This document shows, piece after piece, positions 4,446 to 12,984 of a stretch of 64,000 nt of DNA. The position numbers and the translations under genes were made by a program. Position 1 is the stretch's first letter. Every line of letters begins with the position of its first letter. Below the pieces are notes generated by a model. That model was given only the letters and a program-made list of their open reading frames with translations, did not search any database and had not been told where the DNA came from. Source of the DNA: Flavobacterium soli DSM 19725 (lineage in GTDB: Bacteria > Bacteroidota > Bacteroidia > Flavobacteriales > Flavobacteriaceae); the NCBI RefSeq assembly GCF_000422705.1, contig NZ_AUGO01000008.1, positions 62,001 to 126,000 on the forward strand. The letters run 5' to 3'.

Positions 4446-7400
4446 TTAGAAGTTAATGTTTACACCTAGCATATAGGTTCTTGGAATAGGGTATGTTCCG
4501 TTGTCAATTCCACCACCAATTGGTGCGGCACTAACAGCTCCTGGATCAAATCCTCTATATTTTGTAAATGTATATAAGTTGTTTACACCTAAATACATAC
4601 GAAATTTAGAAATGCCTATTCTATTGCTGAAATCCGGATTTAAAGTATAGCCCAACTGAACATTTTGAATTCTAAAATAAGAACCATCTTCTACAAAATA
4701 GTCAGAAAAAACGTTATTGCTAGTTGCATCAGTTGTCACTCTTGGAACGGTATTGCTTGTTCCTTCTCCTGTCCAACGGTCTAAAACATAGTTCAATCGG
4801 TTTACATCGGTTAATGTTCTTTCGTAGTTTCTGACGATATCATTTCCAATTGAAGCATAGGTATAGGCTGCAAAGTCAAATCCCTTGTAGGTTAAATTGA
4901 AATTGAAGCCCATAATCATATCTGGAATCGGATCTCCAAGATTTGTTCTATCATTTGCATCAATAACCCCATCGCCATTTATATCTTTAAATCTTATATC
5001 TCCTGGTTGTGCAACTGCACCAAGAGCTTGTTGAGATGGATGTGCATTAACTTCGGCTTGATTTTGGAAAATCCCATCAGTTTGATAGCCATAAAAATAG
5101 CCTATTGGTTGTCCTTCCTCCATTCTAGAGGTCAATAAAGTTTGGCCTACTCCAAAAGTTCCACCTTCAATAAAACCTGTTTCAGTATCTACAAGCTCTA
5201 CGACATTATCAATAGTTGAGATATTGTAATTCAATTCCACTTTGAAATCATCCGTAATTTGATTGTTGTAGTTAATTGCAAATTCAAATCCTGAATTTCT
5301 TGTCGTTCCAGCATTTACGGTTGAGTTTCCACTTCCTGGAGCTCCACCACCACCAATTCCAGATGCTGGGACACTTCCGATGAGTAAATTTTCTCTAACA
5401 TCATTATAATAATCGGCTACTATGTTCACTTTATTTTCAAAAAGGTTGAGGTCTAAACCAATATCTAATTTTTTACCTTTTTCCCATTTAAGATTTGGGT
5501 TTGGAAGAACCCCAACTGCTGTTCCGTTGATTAGACTTCCGTTAAATACATATGTAGCTTCTCCATTAAGCAAAGATGCGAATCGATTGTTACCAATTTG
5601 ATCGTTTCCTAAAACACCATAACTTGCTCTTAATTTCAAGAAATTAACAATATTATCAGTTCCAAAAAATTCTTCGTTTGAGATTAACCATCCAGCGGTC
5701 ATTGATGGAAAATAGGCGATAGTATTATTTGGACCAAACTTAGTAGAAGCATCTCTTCTATACATTCCAGAAATTAAATATTTACCTTTGAAATCATATT
5801 GAAATCTTGCAAAATAAGATAGTCTTCTTTCGTCATAATTGTAGGCTCCAACATCTCTTCCCTCTCTAAATCCATTAGCCAAAGAAATATCTGCAAATTC
5901 CCATGAATTATTTGGGACATCGTAACCCGAAGCATTTAACCCTGTGCCAAATTCTTTAAAAATAGTATTACCAACAGTAAAGGTTAGGTTGTGATTATCA
6001 GCAAATGTCTTTTTGTAAGTTGCAAAAAAGTCAAAAGAGTAGTTATTGTCTTCATTTTTGCTTTGATCTACACGGCTTCTTGGCACATTAAATACCTTTC
6101 CCTCAACATAAAAAAGCTCTTTTGCAAAAGTTTTTCCTCTACCATTCCCAGTATTAAAACCAATTCTAGAGGTTAATGTTAATCCCTCAATTAGTTCATA
6201 ATCTAGTCCAAATGTACCATTGATTTTTTTGTAACTTCCATCATTGTATGTGTTTTCAAGTTGAGCTAATGGATTGATGATTTCTATACCATAACCTTGG
6301 TTTGGAATTTGCGTAAATTCACCATTTTGATCATACGGAGTGAAAGTTCCAGGCAAGTTTATTGCATTAAATAATACAGATCCTAAACCATTATCGTTGA
6401 AACCCCTTGAATTATAATAGCTATAAGTAACATTTGTCTGTACTTTTAATTTTTCAGAGATATCAAATCCTAAAGCGATTCTAGCGGTATTTCTTTTAAA
6501 ACGTGATTTATCCCAATCACCGATGATTCCTTCCTGAGTCAAATCGGAAGCACTGATGGCATAGGTAACTTTATCGGTTCCTCCTGATACTGAAAAGTCA
6601 TGACTAATGATTGGAGCACCTTTGCGAAAAAGTTCATCCTGCCAATCAGTCCCTTTCCCTAAGCCAGAAACGTCTGGATAAGGTAATGGGTTTCCTGCAT
6701 TTGCATAGCTTTCATTAAGAATCAATGCATAATCGGTGGCATTCAATAAAGAAAGTTTTCTTGAAGTTTCTTGAAAACCAGTATAACCATTATAGGTTAC
6801 CATTGGTTTTGTATTTTTCCTTCCAGTTTTTGTAGTCACTAGGATGATACCGTTTGCTCCAATAACTCCATAAATTGCTGCTTGAGCATCTTTCAAAACG
6901 GTTAGTGTTTCGATATCACTTGGGTTTAAATCACTTAGATTACCTACATATCCATCAATGATAGCTGTTGGTCTGTTCACTTCATTTGAACCAACTCCTC
7001 TAATTTTAATGTCAAATCCTGCGTTTGGAGCACCTGTTCCTCCAGATACAATAACACCGGAAACTGTCCCTTGTAAGGCTTGATCTACTTTAATAGGTTT
7101 TATTTTTTCCATTGTTTTTGCATCTACAATAGAAACTGATCCCGTAACCTCACGTTTTTTCTGACTACCATAACCAATAACCACAACTTCGTCTAAGGTT
7201 TTGGTGTCTTCTTGCATGGCAATTGCAACATTGCTATTATTTGAAGTTACGGTATATTCAAAATTAGAATATCCTACATAACTAAATACAACCACGGATC
7301 CTGTTGGAATTCCTCCAAGCGAAAAATTTCCATCAAAATCCGATGTTGTTCCTTTAGTAGTATTCTTAATTTGAATGTTTACTCCAGGAAGCGGTAGTCC

Positions 7401-7499
7401 CGATCCTGATTCTTTAACTGTTCCTCCAATGTCATAACTTTGGGCAAAACCAAAAGCGGAGAGTAACAGAAAATAAATTAATAGATAATTTGACTTCAT
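4446..7499 (-). CDS. SusC/RagA family TonB-linked outer-membrane transporter
   Basis: TonB-dependent channel that carries the glycan captured by SusD across the outer membrane, 1017 residues. A signal peptide (cut near FGFAQ) is followed by a carboxypeptidase-regulatory-like domain (about 25-95, GLPLPGVNIQIKNTTKGT). Next come the TonB-box region (LDEVVVIGYGSQKKREVTGS), the plug with the family's ATAxYG-like segment as QAAIYGVIGANGIILVTTK, and the long 22-strand barrel ending in YMLGVNINF. It is the first gene of the susC-susD-lipoprotein-GH16 unit. About 250 bp separate it from the regulator gene and contain words shared with the region upstream of 12527, so I infer that the regulator controls this operon. 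Confidence 0.97.
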   Translation of the reverse strand: MKSNYLLIYFLLLSAFGFAQSYDIGGTVKESGSGLPLPGVNIQIKNTTKGTTSDFDGNFSLGGIPTGSVVVFSYVGYSNFEYTVTSNNSNVAIAMQEDTKTLDEVVVIGYGSQKKREVTGSVSIVDAKTMEKIKPIKVDQALQGTVSGVIVSGGTGAPNAGFDIKIRGVGSNEVNRPTAIIDGYVGNLSDLNPSDIETLTVLKDAQAAIYGVIGANGIILVTTKTGRKNTKPMVTYNGYTGFQETSRKLSLLNATDYALILNESYANAGNPLPYPDVSGLGKGTDWQDELFRKGAPIISHDFSVSGGTDKVTYAISASDLTQEGIIGDWDKSRFKRNTARIALGFDISEKLKVQTNVTYSYYNSRGFNDNGLGSVLFNAINLPGTFTPYDQNGEFTQIPNQGYGIEIINPLAQLENTYNDGSYKKINGTFGLDYELIEGLTLTSRIGFNTGNGRGKTFAKELFYVEGKVFNVPRSRVDQSKNEDNNYSFDFFATYKKTFADNHNLTFTVGNTIFKEFGTGLNASGYDVPNNSWEFADISLANGFREGRDVGAYNYDERRLSYFARFQYDFKGKYLISGMYRRDASTKFGPNNTIAYFPSMTAGWLISNEEFFGTDNIVNFLKLRASYGVLGNDQIGNNRFASLLNGEATYVFNGSLINGTAVGVLPNPNLKWEKGKKLDIGLDLNLFENKVNIVADYYNDVRENLLIGSVPASGIGGGGAPGSGNSTVNAGTTRNSGFEFAINYNNQITDDFKVELNYNISTIDNVVELVDTETGFIEGGTFGVGQTLLTSRMEEGQPIGYFYGYQTDGIFQNQAEVNAHPSQQALGAVAQPGDIRFKDINGDGVIDANDRTNLGDPIPDMIMGFNFNLTYKGFDFAAYTYASIGNDIVRNYERTLTDVNRLNYVLDRWTGEGTSNTVPRVTTDATSNNVFSDYFVEDGSYFRIQNVQLGYTLNPDFSNRIGISKFRMYLGVNNLYTFTKYRGFDPGAVSAAPIGGGIDNGTYPIPRTYMLGVNINF

Positions 7500-7641
7500 A
7501 AGTATGTTTTTTGTGAATTATAAAATTAGCCTACTTATTTGAGAATAATTCAAAATATACCACAACAAAAAACATACATCCTAAAAAAAGTAGTGCAAAA
7601 TTTCCATACCAACAAAACAATCCCAATAGATATGCAGAATG

Positions 7642-7721
7642 TTAGAGTAATGTTAAATCAAAAAAATCTTAAAAAAATCAAAAAAAAGAGCCAATACAAC
7701 GTTGTTGTTGTGGTAATGTAT
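7642..7721 (-). promoter_or_regulatory. Putative double operator upstream of susC
   Basis: Two related words lie on the plus strand: TTAGAGTAAT at 7642-7651 (within TGTTAGAGTAATGTT) and TGTTGTGGTAATGTAT at 7706-7721. Both words also occur upstream of the gene starting at 12527. The two words resemble each other (shared core TGTTnnnGTAATGT), which suggests one protein binding twice. A third partial copy, TGTTGTGGTATA, lies on the opposite strand at 7556-7567, close to the expected promoter. The binding protein is unknown; the adjacent HTH regulator is the obvious candidate. Confidence 0.55.
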
Positions 7722-7750
7722 AGGTAATTTTTACAGATGTAGTAGTGGTG

Positions 7751-10558
7751 CTATATGGATAGTATATACTCAACAAGCCCTTGTTCGTGAGGTAAATCCA
7801 TTTTTTTACGCAAACGATATCGTTTTATTTCAACACTTCTTACGGAAATATTCAATAATGGTGCAATTTCTTTCGATGAAAGGTTGAGTCTCAAATACGC
7901 ACAAAGCCTTAAATCATTAGGTGTTAGGGAAGAATGTGCAGCTTTTATTTTTTTCAAAAAGTCTTTATCTGCATTATTGAAAGCTTCCTTGAAGAGGTCC
8001 CAAGTATCTTCTTCACTGATGTTTTTATTGATTGTTGTGATTACGGTTTTGATATTTTTCGAATTATCATCTGTTTTTTTCAAATCTTCCTTGATGGATG
8101 TCAATAATTCATTTTTCTTAATCAGGCTCATAGTCGAAACAGCCAATTCGCGGTTCTTGCTATTTACATCAAGTTCCAATTGTTCATTCTTTATTTTTAG
8201 CAGTTCTTGTTCAACCTCCATTTCTTTTAATTCCAATTTTCTATTATTGTCTTCAATCAACTTGTTCTTTTGATTTTGATAATAAGAATTGTAAGCTTTA
8301 TGCACAAAAAATGCAATTATGAAGATAATGATCAGATAGATCAATATGGCTAAATTAGTAGCATACCAAGGTCGTTCAATTGTAAAGTGATAGACAATTG
8401 TATTTTCTGAAAGCGAATTCCCAACCCTAGCACGAACTTTAAAAGTATAATCTCCAAAAGGCAGATTTTTGAAACTTACATACGGTTTATTTGACCAAAC
8501 GCTCCATTCCTCAAAATAACCTTCAAGCAAGTATTGATATTCGGCTACAATATATTTGTTGTATTCTGGTACACTAAAATTGAACGTAAGATTATTGGAA
8601 ACAAAATCGATTTCTTCATCACCTGTAATGGAGATATAATGAATGTTCGAGTTGCTTTCATTTTTATAAACTGTATTTAAATTGATATTGAATTTATTGA
8701 AATTCAATTCATTAATGTTCATTGAATAGTAGCCGTCAGTAGTTCCAATAAAATAAATATTCTCTCCAATTCTCGAAATATTTTCATAACCAGGCATCGA
8801 ATTATTGAGTGAATAGGGGATAGGGATAGTGTTGAGTTTTGGCTCGCTACTCAATTTTCCTATAGTGAAATAATTAATATTATTTTTAGTAAAAAGCCAT
8901 AGTTTGTCGGATTTATCGACTATTAACTTCCCCGAACGATATTCGTCATTTTCAATCGCCTTGCTTAATATTAGGTCTTTTTCAAATTTTTTATTTTGGT
9001 TATTAAATTTGAAAATCCCTTCTTTTGAAGCATAAATTATCGTGTTGTTGAATTTTGCTAGACCTGCATTTTTTCCCTTTGCTGGCGATTTATAGGTTTC
9101 AAATTTTGTAACTTTTGTAAAATTACTGTTTAATAAAAGTCGGAAAATGGCTTTATATTCATGACTTACAATTATTTCGTTAGGCGAGTTAACTTCAAAA
9201 AATTTAGATGAATAATCAAAACCTGCAATTTTATTTTTGAATTTCCATCCTGAAGCCGTTTTCTCCAAAATACTAATTCCTGAATAATTCCCCTGAAGTA
9301 ATTGATTTGGATTATTAGGAAAGTTTTGAAACTTCCATGTTCCCGATTGGTTGTAAATCAAGCTCGAAGTACCCTCATTAATAACAAAAGTACCTGAATC
9401 ATGACCACAAAATAAGGTGTTGTCATATTCAAAAAGTGACCAAACTTGACCTTTCGTTCCGTTCACGATTTGATATTGCTCGTTTGAATTATTGGTTTTA
9501 TAAAATAATCCCTGATTTGTTCCTACATAGATTTTATTGTTAAATACCGTCGAAGAATAGACTGTTCCTAGAATTCCTGTCTTGTCGAAAAAGGTTTTTA
9601 TGGGAGAAGAAATATTCAAACAATCGATTCCATTATCAAGTCCAATCCAAAGATTTTTCTCCCGATCTTCAAATAATGAAAGGATTGTGTTATTGCTTAA
9701 TCCTTGATTTTGAGTGATATGGTATAATATTTTTCCTTCTGGACTTATGATAAAAACACCATTTGATATACTCCCTAAAGCAAAATTTCCATTATTCAAA
9801 ACGATACTTGCATAGATACTGGTAGAATTGAGCAAAGCATCAGCTTCAGTCGTCCATTTTAGAAGATTGCCATCTGAAAATTTATAAAATCCGCTGTATT
9901 GTGTTTGAATGAGGATGCCATCATTTGAAGAAAAAATATTCAAGACCTTTTTATTCTGCATGATTTTTTGATCGACTAAAATATGCGAATTCCCATTTTT
10001 AATTTCAAAAATACTTCCGTCAACGCTTTGAAAAAAGATACCGTCACGTGCTTTAAACGATTTTAAAATACCGCTTTTGGGTGTGATAATTTTGAACTGT
10101 TGGGTTTTGCTATCATAAATATAAATCCTATTCAATGATTGGAATATAACCCATTGATCATAGTTGATAATGTTCCAAAATTGTTCATCATCAATTAACT
10201 TTTCTTTTATTTTTTTGCTAAGAGAGGTATATTCGAGAATGCCTTTCTCATTCTTAATCCAAAAACCAAATTCCATGTAACATCCCGTATATACTGTGTT
10301 TTCAATCACTTTTACTGAACGAAGAATCGTTTCATTTGGTGATGGATAAAGTCTCCAATTTGCACCATTAAATTCTAGTAATCCTTCGTTGTTAGCAATG
10401 TAGATGAAGTTTTTTTTATCTTGATCAAGCATCCAATTTTGGTTTCCAGCACCATATTCTTCCGAACTATATTTCACAATAGACGGCAACTCTTGTGCAA
10501 CTCCAAGAAAAGAAACGGTAAAGAAAAGAAGCACTAATTTTAGAGGAAAAACTTTCAT
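7751..10558 (-). CDS. Membrane-bound one-component regulator: beta-propeller sensor, Y_Y_Y domain, TM, coiled coil, LuxR-type HTH
   Basis: Predicted inner-membrane transcription regulator of 935 residues that would sense glycan fragments in the periplasm. After a signal peptide (cut near LGVAQ) come two-component-propeller repeats (about 25-620, for example NLWIGLDNGIDCLN). A Y_Y_Y domain follows at about 665-745 (YQYLLEGYFEEWSVWS, FGDYTFKVRARVG), then one membrane helix at about 758-780 and a charged coiled coil to about 850. The C-terminal HTH (about 870-935) has LTPNDLRLCAYLRLNLSSKE and ISVRSVEIKRYRLRKKM. There is no histidine kinase or receiver domain, so sensing and DNA binding are in one chain, a layout comparable to SusR. 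It lies between susC and the secreted module protein and probably regulates both transcripts. Confidence 0.88.
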   Translation of the reverse strand: MKVFPLKLVLLFFTVSFLGVAQELPSIVKYSSEEYGAGNQNWMLDQDKKNFIYIANNEGLLEFNGANWRLYPSPNETILRSVKVIENTVYTGCYMEFGFWIKNEKGILEYTSLSKKIKEKLIDDEQFWNIINYDQWVIFQSLNRIYIYDSKTQQFKIITPKSGILKSFKARDGIFFQSVDGSIFEIKNGNSHILVDQKIMQNKKVLNIFSSNDGILIQTQYSGFYKFSDGNLLKWTTEADALLNSTSIYASIVLNNGNFALGSISNGVFIISPEGKILYHITQNQGLSNNTILSLFEDREKNLWIGLDNGIDCLNISSPIKTFFDKTGILGTVYSSTVFNNKIYVGTNQGLFYKTNNSNEQYQIVNGTKGQVWSLFEYDNTLFCGHDSGTFVINEGTSSLIYNQSGTWKFQNFPNNPNQLLQGNYSGISILEKTASGWKFKNKIAGFDYSSKFFEVNSPNEIIVSHEYKAIFRLLLNSNFTKVTKFETYKSPAKGKNAGLAKFNNTIIYASKEGIFKFNNQNKKFEKDLILSKAIENDEYRSGKLIVDKSDKLWLFTKNNINYFTIGKLSSEPKLNTIPIPYSLNNSMPGYENISRIGENIYFIGTTDGYYSMNINELNFNKFNINLNTVYKNESNSNIHYISITGDEEIDFVSNNLTFNFSVPEYNKYIVAEYQYLLEGYFEEWSVWSNKPYVSFKNLPFGDYTFKVRARVGNSLSENTIVYHFTIERPWYATNLAILIYLIIIFIIAFFVHKAYNSYYQNQKNKLIEDNNRKLELKEMEVEQELLKIKNEQLELDVNSKNRELAVSTMSLIKKNELLTSIKEDLKKTDDNSKNIKTVITTINKNISEEDTWDLFKEAFNNADKDFLKKIKAAHSSLTPNDLRLCAYLRLNLSSKEIAPLLNISVRSVEIKRYRLRKKMDLPHEQGLVEYILSI

Positions 10559-10644
10559 AATCGAATTTAAATAGGTTGCTAAAGATAGAAATATAAATAG
10601 GTTTTGTCAAAAAAAGCAACGTTATTTTACGGTGCTTCGTATAA

Positions 10645-10680
10645 TAAAAAAGCACGTTTTTTCGTAGAAAAAACGTGCTT
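10645..10680 (-). terminator. Rho-independent terminator of the three-module protein gene
   Basis: A perfect 14-bp inverted repeat (10650-10663 with 10667-10680, loop GTA) is followed on the minus strand by a run of six T. It lies 18 bp after the stop at 10698, so the transcript of that gene should end before the regulator gene. Confidence 0.88.
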
Positions 10681-10697
10681 GCTGACTAAAAAAAAAA

Positions 10698-12527
10698 TTA
10701 TTTTTTAATGATTCTTGATGTAGTTACTTTTCCTTCTACGGTTACTTTGGCGATATAAACTCCGCTTTGAAAACCTGAAAGGTTAATAGTTTCATTGTTT
10801 TTGAATGAATTTATTGATAGTATTTCTTGTCCAAGTAGGTTATAAAAGGTGATGTTGTCAATTGTTTTTTCAGCACTTACATGGAAGAAATCGCTAACTG
10901 GATTAGGATACATTTTCACTGAAGAAATTTTAAAATCCTCAGTCGCTAAAGCTCCATTACTGAAATAAACATTATCTACATATACTTTAGAACCCCCACC
11001 AACAAAGATCAACTGGGCAATATTTTCCATTGTTGTCAATCCTACAAAATCTGTTAAAGGAATACTCATCGTTACCCATAGGCTTTGAGCCGGATTGTCA
11101 AAAGTCAATTCATGTTCTACGTCATCGCCACCTTGAAAGATTCCGTTTGCACCAAAATCTACCAATTTAATTTTGAATTGCGTGAAAGTTGGCGACCAAA
11201 CATCTACATTGAAATGTGTCATACCCGTGATGTCAAGCTGAGAAGTAACGGTTTCGATACCCACAAAGTTTAGAGAGGTATATTTTTTCGTGTCGTTTCC
11301 TGCAACCTGAACATCCTCCAAAGTCGCATCCGACCAATCTGTTTTCCAAGTGTCAACCGTAACATTTGTATAGGCATTGCTAAACATCGAGATTACATTT
11401 GCAGCATCCATCGTTGGAGTAGGTGCTGCAACTGTTGGGTCTGAAGGGATAACAATAACTGTTTCGTTACTAAAATAGACATTATCAATATATACTTTTG
11501 CACCACTTGCTACAAAGATAATTTGGGAGATATGTTGCAATGAAGTTAGATTTTCAAATTCTGCCAAAGGAATGGTATAGGAATTCCAAGTAGATTGTGC
11601 AGGACTATTAAAAGTGATTTCATGTTCAGAGTCGTCACCGCCTTGAAAAACACCATTAGGGCCAAAATCAACCAATTTTATTTTGAAAACAGTGAAGTCA
11701 GGCGACCATACATCTACATTAAAAGCAGTCATACCCGAAGCATCGATTTGAGAAGTCACGGTTTCAACTCCTACAAAAACCAAAGGATCATATTTTTTCA
11801 CATCGTCTCCTGCAATTTGAACGTCTTCTAACGTAGCATCCGACCATTCTGTTTTCCACGTATCAACTGCAACGTTGGTATAGGCGTTACTAAATAGTGA
11901 AATTACATCAGCTTGCGGCAATATTGGAAGTGGAGCTGCTACTATAGGATCTGTTGGAACCGTACTTGCTTCGTTCGTAAAATATACATTGTCAATAAAT
12001 ACAGTTCCTGTACCAACTGGCATTCCTGAGAAAATAAGTTGTGCAATATGCTCTTTGTTTATCAAATTTGTAAAATTAGTCAAAGGGATGTCATAACTTA
12101 CCCAGCCATTTTGAGCAGGTGTTTCAAATATAATTTCATGCTCAGTATCATCGCCACCTTGAAAAGCACCATTTGCGCCAAAATCCACTAGTTTGATTCT
12201 GAAGGTTGTAAGGTTGGGTGTCCATATGTCAACATGAAAATAAAGCATGTCACCAGCATCAATAAGGTTAGGGCCAACCGTTTCAATACCAACGAAACTA
12301 AGGTTAGAGTACTTCTTTACATCGTTTCCTGCAATGGATAAATCTTCCAAGGCTCCAGCTGACCATTCCGTTATCCAAGTATCAACTGGAACATTGGTAT
12401 AAGTGTTGCTAAACATTGAAATAACATTCGCCGGATTTCGTGTAGGAACCGGTGGTGCATCTGTTGGAGCTTGCGAAAAGCCGTAAGAACAAATTAAAAG
12501 GAAAATCGTTTGCGTAATTTTTTTCAT
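10698..12527 (-). CDS. Secreted non-catalytic protein of three tandem IDNVYF modules with a T9SS type A sorting tail
   Basis: 609 residues. A signal peptide (cut near YGFSQ) is followed by three copies of the module also found twice in the lipoprotein at 1349-2950. Copies lie at about residues 30-185, 200-350 and 372-520. Each begins VISxFSN-YTNV-VDTW, contains KLVDFGxNGxFQGGDD-EHE, and ends YIDNVYF or YVDNVYF. The last 75 residues (MYPNPVSDFFHVSAE to TSRIIKK) are a type A T9SS sorting domain, so the protein should be released or anchored outside the cell. No glycosidase domain is present. I infer a soluble or surface polysaccharide-binding protein serving the locus. A matching -7 box (12553-12560) and operator-like words lie upstream. 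Confidence 0.85.
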   Translation of the reverse strand: MKKITQTIFLLICSYGFSQAPTDAPPVPTRNPANVISMFSNTYTNVPVDTWITEWSAGALEDLSIAGNDVKKYSNLSFVGIETVGPNLIDAGDMLYFHVDIWTPNLTTFRIKLVDFGANGAFQGGDDTEHEIIFETPAQNGWVSYDIPLTNFTNLINKEHIAQLIFSGMPVGTGTVFIDNVYFTNEASTVPTDPIVAAPLPILPQADVISLFSNAYTNVAVDTWKTEWSDATLEDVQIAGDDVKKYDPLVFVGVETVTSQIDASGMTAFNVDVWSPDFTVFKIKLVDFGPNGVFQGGDDSEHEITFNSPAQSTWNSYTIPLAEFENLTSLQHISQIIFVASGAKVYIDNVYFSNETVIVIPSDPTVAAPTPTMDAANVISMFSNAYTNVTVDTWKTDWSDATLEDVQVAGNDTKKYTSLNFVGIETVTSQLDITGMTHFNVDVWSPTFTQFKIKLVDFGANGIFQGGDDVEHELTFDNPAQSLWVTMSIPLTDFVGLTTMENIAQLIFVGGGSKVYVDNVYFSNGALATEDFKISSVKMYPNPVSDFFHVSAEKTIDNITFYNLLGQEILSINSFKNNETINLSGFQSGVYIAKVTVEGKVTTSRIIKK

Positions 12528-12552
12528 GATACTATTGTTTTTTGTTGTATCT

Positions 12553-12560
12553 CAAATTTA
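12553..12560 (-). promoter_or_regulatory. -7 promoter box for the three-module protein
   Basis: On the minus strand the sequence reads TAAATTTG, an exact match to the Bacteroidetes -7 consensus TAnnTTTG, 26 bp before the ATG at 12527. I see no good -33 TTTG at the expected spacing, which would fit a promoter that depends on an activator. Confidence 0.55.
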
Positions 12561-12660
12561 GGATTGAAATAGAAGATTTGTATAAAAACCAACTATATAA
12601 AAACTATACAAATTGTAAACTATTTAAAACACAACTAAAACATGGTTTTGCGAAAGATTT

Positions 12661-12729
12661 TTAGAGTAATATTCCATTAATAATAAGGTTTGATAATGAT
12701 GTAAAATGCAAAATGTTGTGGTAATGTAT
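12661..12729 (-). promoter_or_regulatory. Putative double operator upstream of the three-module protein gene
   Basis: TTAGAGTAAT (12661-12670) and TGTTGTGGTAATGTAT (12714-12729) are exact copies of words upstream of susC, in the same order and orientation relative to the gene. The distance between word starts is 53 bp here and 64 bp at susC, a difference of about one helical turn. Confidence 0.55.
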
Positions 12730-12984
12730 TGTTTTTTTAGAGAAAATTTTATAAGTATTTTTATGTATTTGATTAATTTTAATAGAAAAAAGTGTCAAAT
12801 TCTTATTTATATCCTATGGAATTGAATTAATGAGAATTACATTATTGCAATTATAAAGTCTAAATAGTTGATAATATGGCAATTGATTTATTGATTTTAA
12901 GAAATTAGTAATCTTTATTCAAATTTTAACAAATTAGATTGTAATAAATCCCTATTTTCGCTCGTTAACAATAAAAATTTAAAC

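Follow-up and report, generated by a model that had tools for sequence, protein, structure and literature searches.

What does a 16-bp word do when it stands, letter for letter, before two transcripts on either side of a regulator gene? The question arises from a 64,000-bp stretch of Flavobacterium soli DSM 19725 (contig NZ_AUGO01000008.1, positions 62,001 to 126,000; hereafter the window, whose numbering is used throughout), where the minus strand encodes, in order, a 609-amino-acid secreted protein, a 935-amino-acid regulator, SusC, SusD, a PKD-containing protein and a protein of glycoside hydrolase family 16 (GH16). A sequence-only reading of this stretch had noticed the word TGTTGTGGTAATGTAT upstream of both susC and the gene of the 609-amino-acid protein, and it is indeed present at 7706-7721 and 12714-12729. 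Here, we place the word within one of a pair of facing 20-bp sites that recurs at both promoters and is conserved before related operons. Judging from the layout and conservation of these sites, the regulator encoded between the two transcripts probably bridges both sites of a pair and activates both transcripts via a DNA loop.

Paired sites at two promoters

In 26 orthologous loci of a first batch (25 from related genomes, plus the window's own), the stretch after the stop codon of the regulator gene holds two conserved blocks, a far one resembling ACTATACATTACCACAACA and an inverted near one resembling ACCACAACAAAAAACATACA. A matrix was built from 50 sites of these loci and then fixed. Scanning the window with it returned four 20-bp sites, one far and one near at each of the two promoters. 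The far site of susC occupies 7706-7725 on the minus strand (ACCTATACATTACCACAACA in gene orientation) and starts 25 bp past the regulator stop. Its near site, ACCACAACAAAAAACATACA, lies inverted at 7559-7578 on the plus strand, 147 bp away start to start and 59 bp before the susC ATG. The third, partial and inverted copy that had been reported at 7556-7567 is real and important, and belongs to this near site. Before the gene of the 609-amino-acid protein, the far site is at 12714-12733 (minus strand; AACAATACATTACCACAACA in gene orientation) and the inverted near site at 12591-12610 (plus strand; AACTATATAAAAACTATACA), 123 bp from the far site and 63 bp before the ATG. This fourth site had escaped the sequence-only reading and was found by the matrix; in other genomes, the same or nearly the same site precedes the corresponding gene. 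Relative to the start codons in the window, the far sites lie 186-206 bp and the inverted near sites 59-63 bp upstream.

Each site consists of two 9-bp half-sites (approximately ACCTATACA) that are 11 bp apart, and variants such as ACCTATACATCACCTATACA indicate that the site is a direct repeat of the 9-bp half-site with an 11-bp period. Across 169 scored pairs from the loci described below, the self-similarity of the far site peaks at 11 bp (0.53, the next value being 0.40).

The near site is positioned rigidly relative to the promoter. Bacteroidota promoters have the consensus TAnnTTTG at -7 and TTG at -33, on the strength of which we take TAATTTTA (7521-7528, minus strand; susC) and TAAATTTG (12553-12560, minus strand; 609-amino-acid protein) to be probable -7 boxes. 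Both lie 30 bp past the near site. In 146 of 169 loci, a TAnnTTT box begins exactly 30 bp beyond the near site; allowing 29-31 bp raises the count to 158. A T-rich stretch immediately follows the near site. By the same consensus, the near site would abut the -33 region and the far site would have its centre about 190 bp before the start. These positions favour an activator rather than a repressor.

The pair is conserved well beyond the window. A scan of genome contigs yielded 80 named loci, the best 80 of 566. The first set comprised 106 loci, reduced to 98 after loci with identical regulator DNA were dropped, of which 97 could be scanned (L226 was too short). A facing pair, with both sites scoring at least 11, follows the regulator gene in 85 of these 97. 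Training loci make up 26 of the 97 scanned and 25 of the 85 paired loci, and the pair is found in 60 of the 71 loci that did not contribute to the matrix. No pair turned up when these 98 loci (1.42 Mb) were scanned as reversed sequence. A second set was drawn from a 299-genome sample of the family Flavobacteriaceae, in which 159 genomes, representing 136 of 236 genera, carry a regulator match at E ≤1e-200. Of the listed places, 109 were examined and 101 remained after removal of identical or already seen regulators; at a threshold of 9, the pair was present in 84. Both sets together thus yield a pair in 169 of 198 scanned loci, with the far site 20-25 bp past the regulator stop in 156 of the 169. 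The proposal that one regulator site is shared by both transcripts is borne out by this conservation before operons that follow orthologous genes for regulators with a Y_Y_Y domain and a helix-turn-helix (HTH). So is the remark that the regulator gene lacks the motif upstream: a site scoring at least 14 occurs within 400 bp before it in 2 of 82 loci. In a locus of another family (L085, genome G038), a perfect tandem ACCACAACATTACCACAACA is followed 23 bp on by an inverted copy, with the near site 217 bp from the first.

Other genomes also have second pairs before a secreted-protein gene adjoining the regulator. Fifteen rows of such pairs were obtained on the regulator strand; L065 (a second susC copy), L183 and L214 (weak sites) and L190 (a divergent gene) were left out, and the remaining 11 entered the -7 check, where all 11 have the TAnnTTT box at 30 bp. 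Minus-strand rows are the same pairs or overlapping alternatives read backwards, including excluded pairs after the regulator. Among the 11, spacings are 112-114 bp in seven, 123 bp in two, and 134 and 138 bp once each.

The words from which the question arose fare differently when chance is considered. In the 4.0-Mb assembly, TGTTGTGGTAATGTAT has two exact copies, both at this cluster, and its sole single-mismatch copy falls within a 648-amino-acid open frame. Two 300-bp upstream regions shared a word of at least 16 bp in 23 of 20,000 Markov simulations, as did 11 of about 20,000 pairs of AT-rich segments from the window, so the 16-bp word is unlikely to be a chance match once the upstream regions are fixed. 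When loosened, it is not enriched genome-wide: there are 77 matches with up to three mismatches and 77 in the reversed control. A genome-wide regulon drawn from a loose pattern can likewise be discarded (38 matches with at most one mismatch against 58 in the control); among the matches listed, the only facing pairs are the two in the window. The second word, TTAGAGTAAT, lies at 7642-7651 and 12661-12670 as claimed, but nothing further sets it apart. A shared word of at least 10 bp arose in 9,836 of 20,000 simulations, the genome holds 9 copies against 12 in the control, and only 1 of 85 paired loci carries it within 400 bp after the regulator gene, a locus that must be the window's own. This rules it out as a second binding unit and, since the word is at chance level, empties the 64- and 53-bp word-to-word spacings of meaning. 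A merged motif, TGTTnnnGTAATGT, falls with it, being not enriched (5 against 9 in the control). The two-unit model as suggested is wrong: the second unit is the inverted site 147 bp (susC) or 123 bp (609-amino-acid protein) away, not TTAGAGTAAT at 53-64 bp. Similarly, the step of one helical turn that had been pointed out does exist, but in the distance between far and near sites and not in the word-to-word distance where it was measured.

Helical phasing of the interval between sites

Spacings between far and near sites in the first set cluster at about 125, 136 and 147 bp, with one at 114 bp. An orthologous locus of Flavobacterium johnsoniae (L173) has a spacing of 136 bp. The values 114, 125, 136 and 147 bp, each ±2 bp, served as the prediction for the second set. 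In these held-out loci, 75 of 82 spacings in the range of 108-153 bp fall within 2 bp of a predicted value, against 43% expected from their share of that range, and the seven misses (121, 122, 128, 139, 139, 150 and 150 bp) are each at most 4 bp from one. When both sets are pooled, 152 of 162 spacings fall within 2 bp of one of these four values, which rise in steps of 11 bp. The best-fitting period was 11.25 bp in the first set and 11.35 bp in the pooled sets, or about 11.3 bp. These phase tests set aside seven spacings outside 108-153 bp, five of which had been excluded from the first-set analysis too.

On the regulator tree of the first set, 21 of 23 inferred changes of at least 4 bp lie within 2 bp of 11 or 22 bp (binomial 1.3e-5 under a uniform size model, a crude one), and on the combined tree 35 of 44 such changes lie within 2 bp of 11, 22 or 33 bp. 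Drift simulated on the tree reached the observed concentration of phase in 0 of 1000 runs at the fitted rate, 0 of 1000 at a robust rate, and 6 of 1000 at one third of the fitted rate. Spacers of equal length are 42% identical, against 33% when shuffled, which indicates that length is kept while most of the sequence is free. Slippage by a half-site was rejected as the source of the 11-bp steps on the positions of the sites, with no direct test of mutational bias. The far site is tied to the regulator stop (in 156 of 169 loci) and the near site to the -7 box, so it is the interval between the sites that changes.

The probable binder and a possible loop

The candidate binder is encoded at 7751-10558 on the minus strand. 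It combines a periplasmic sensor of two propellers and a Y_Y_Y domain with one membrane helix, a coiled coil and a C-terminal HTH resembling LuxR and GerE. The HTH domain takes up roughly residues 780-935. In Pfam, Y_Y_Y scores above its cut-off, while GerE (21.8 against 23.5 bits) and Reg_prop (19.8 against 20.4) both fall just below theirs. By sequence, the protein matches PDB entry 3v9f at E 3.2e-38. The fold model is middling (mean predicted local distance difference test score 73.7, predicted TM-score 0.43, HTH blocks about 60); its top 15 Foldseek rows are sensor chains of hybrid two-component systems (HTCS), with TM-scores on the query of only 0.28-0.35. Neither the PDB sequence search nor the fold model provided information on DNA contacts.

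A better hint comes from comparison between regulators. The recognition region reads RS(V/I)E(I/V)KRYRLRKK in the twelve regulator sequences compared, and the pair accompanies this regulator in one genus after another, at protein identities of 44-64%. In a group of paralogues (11 loci, 28-37% identity in the best segment), the region reads RGVEL(H/Q)RYRLRKK in all 11. The stretch after their stop codon has the same layout, with half-sites of the ACTACATCA type: the far site resembles AATACATCATTACTACATCA, the near site is inverted, and 31-33 bp beyond it stands a -7-like box. This consensus was picked by eye from the same loci, and one of the near sites is a weak match (15 of 20, five positions being free). 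That the word differs along with the recognition helix (RGVELH instead of RSVEIK) while the layout stays constant is the best clue to the neighbouring regulator as the binder. We therefore consider the sites to be probably bound by the product of 7751-10558, which probably does not regulate its own gene through them. The paralogous loci (L137-L147; own copy L138, G000:C5) precede genes for SusC and SusD, and for laminin-G-like, Pfam 'Glycoamylase' and GH3 proteins. In L065 (G007:C23), a second glucan operon keeps the pair, at 133 bp, although all that precedes it of a regulator gene is a C-terminal remnant; action in trans would predict this.

We propose that the regulator encoded between the two transcripts acts on both promoters. 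Through its C-terminal LuxR-type HTH, it would bind the 20-bp sites, whose half-sites, at an 11-bp period, would share one face of the helix; this suggests that each site probably takes a dimer. Of the facing sites at each promoter, one sits just before the promoter, with about 30 bp between it and the -7 box, and the other lies 10 to 13 helical turns further up. On binding an oligosaccharide, presumably from beta-1,3-glucan to judge from the GH16 enzymes, the periplasmic sensor would allow the regulator to occupy both sites together and loop the intervening DNA. The loop would fix the activator beside RNA polymerase, and the susCD-GH16 operon and the 609-amino-acid protein would be induced together. 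The sequences themselves establish the conserved paired sites at both promoters and their absence from the regulator's own, the rigid distance from near site to promoter and the helical quantisation of the spacing; the identity of the binder, the dimer at each site, looping, activation as opposed to repression, and the ligand are inferred. We see roughly even chances for a broader version of this proposal, in which membrane-anchored one-component sugar sensors activate by looping, selection keeps 10, 11, 12 or 13 turns across Flavobacteriaceae, the promoters record how DNA is wound in vivo, at about 11.3 bp per turn, and paralogous regulators reuse the layout with other words.

Several observations weigh against this proposal. 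Nine of the 44 spacing changes of at least 4 bp do not fit the phase, and seven of 169 spacings lie outside the tested range (159, 171, 173, 173, 174, 175 and 217 bp). Those near 173 bp, from four first-set loci (two with Lutibacter titles, and one titled Lutibacter sp. STE_174 that was kept in both counts) and one second-set locus, are about a third of a turn off phase. The spacings of the paralogue group, at 96 bp (seven loci), 93, 97, 108 and 112 bp, are too few for a phase test. The A-rich near site is weakly tandem, its self-similarity being 0.43 at 11 bp and equally at 13 bp. Moreover, no pair was scored in 12 of 97 and 17 of 101 loci. Most of the 12 keep a far site at 19-25 bp, with the near site reduced to a half or unscored. 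Loci L165, L186, L190 and L195, where no operon resembling a polysaccharide utilisation locus (PUL) follows the regulator, have neither a convincing far site nor a pair there. At L077:9055-12180 and similar loci, the operon after the regulator keeps the pair and opens with a GH2-type TIM-barrel-domain protein instead of SusC. Since a glycoside hydrolase comes first in some operons, the link is to the operon that follows the regulator, not to susC as such. Finally, a terminator-like hairpin of the regulator gene, followed by a T run, has the second half-site of the far site as one of its arms in 14 of 169 loci.

That last observation speaks for an explanation in which the far word is merely part of the regulator gene's terminator or of another RNA structure, and far and near halves are indeed able to pair (ACCACAACA with TGTTGTGGT). 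Such a hairpin is, however, lacking in 155 of 169 loci, the same far site stands before the gene of the 609-amino-acid protein without a preceding regulator gene, and in L074 the regulator stop and the far site are separated by 533 bp, whereas the two sites themselves are 134 bp apart. Helical spacing would also be unexpected for an RNA structure, and we regard RNA as a very improbable main explanation. Chance repetition in AT-rich DNA deserves even less credence. It is upheld for TTAGAGTAAT, and loose matching across the genome likewise gives chance-level counts, but a pair in 169 of 198 loci against none in reversed sequence refutes it for the 16-bp word.

Two further alternatives accept the sites as protein-binding. 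In one, which we think improbable, another transcription factor occupies them and the adjacent regulator is a bystander. The sub-threshold GerE match leaves room for this. On the other hand, the pair follows the regulator across genera at 44-64% identity, a paralogue whose recognition helix is different has a different word next to it, and the pair is missing after the regulator in the four loci where no PUL-like operon follows. The other alternative, unlikely in our judgement, retains the regulator and dispenses with the loop: the near dimer would contact RNA polymerase, and the far dimer would add to activation from the same face or via the alpha C-terminal domains, so that the helix face would count although nothing bridges the two sites. 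This would explain the rigid distance from near site to promoter and, in part, the helical phasing, and it suits the several loci that retain a far site though the near site has decayed. Against it, RNA polymerase cannot usually be reached without bending from a far site whose centre is about 190 bp upstream, and all 169 scored pairs have their sites facing each other, although the search required that orientation. Bridging by the regulator, with a loop, remains our preferred explanation.

Related systems and the gene cluster

The closest precedent, by layout and domain architecture, appears to be the long-spaced motifs of SusR-like regulators in Bacteroides. The portions of Ravcheev et al. 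(2013, PMC3878776) drawn on here describe two predicted, distant sites in direct orientation, with centres 67 or 77 bp apart, or six or seven turns. To that extent, those regulators are likewise membrane proteins with a periplasmic sugar sensor and a cytoplasmic C-terminal HTH, and they target susC-like operons. Two conserved sites, a long non-conserved spacer and whole helical turns before a susC-type operon are features found here too. As far as those portions go, the differences are that their sites are direct and 67 or 77 bp apart, whereas ours are inverted and mostly 113-150 bp apart (10-13 turns; our scan sought facing pairs only), and that here there are four spacing classes and each site is a tandem of two half-sites. 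With HTCS, the regulator shares the periplasmic sensor of two propellers and Y_Y_Y, of the same fold (PDB 3v9f, 4a2l and 3ott). In contrast to them, it has no kinase or receiver domain in Pfam, and its HTH is LuxR-like where theirs is AraC-like. HTCS motifs are given, in the same portions of the Bacteroides study, as direct repeats about 21 bp apart (PMC3878776).

A mechanistic parallel is offered by LacR loops in Escherichia coli, for which the consulted part of one study gives 10.95-11.60 bp per turn in vivo (PMC1762422). There, too, two operators are in helical register, and our period of about 11.3 bp fits within that reported range. LacR, however, is a soluble repressor, whereas the regulator here is membrane-anchored and probably an activator, and the evidence is evolutionary. 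No flavobacterial operator of this layout was found described in the regulator literature searched, in which subscription journals and preprints were thinly covered.

A vague repeat has thereby become a precise and testable operator for a group of regulators linked to glucan use. Its layout (far site, inverted near site and -7 box at 30 bp) is searchable, and can assign targets and words to similar regulators. If looping is true, this would be an unusual case in which evolution, rather than mutagenesis, has recorded the in vivo helical repeat of DNA, and in which a membrane protein bridges two chromosomal sites.

The gene susC (4446-7499, minus strand), encoding a TonB-dependent receptor, leads the operon of susC, susD and the genes of the PKD-containing and GH16 proteins. 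The predicted second target, at 10698-12527 on the minus strand, encodes a secreted protein with three carbohydrate-binding-like modules and a type IX secretion sorting tail. Its modules are mutually similar, and those of the PKD-containing protein resemble them. Past the start of the window lie genes for a protein that, by inspection, resembles GH3 enzymes and then for a second GH16-like protein. The GH16 enzymes suggest that the substrate of the cluster is a beta-1,3-glucan such as laminarin. Between the gene of the 609-amino-acid protein and the regulator gene, AGCACGTTTTTTCGTAGAAAAAACGTGCT at 10651-10679 forms, by eye, a hairpin that is compatible with separate transcripts of the two genes.

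Other words occur beside further paralogues. In a second paralogue group, group B, with a divergent susC (L117-L123, L128 and L129 among others), direct words like TTGATGTGTTTTTGTAA stand, by eye, about 33 bp or three turns apart just before susC, and a ATGTAGTG word lies further up from them, between the regulator and susC. After the regulator stop in L124, L125 and L127, ACCGTAGTCAAACCGTA, a tandem 11-bp repeat of yet another word, precedes the gene of a very large secreted enzyme-like protein.

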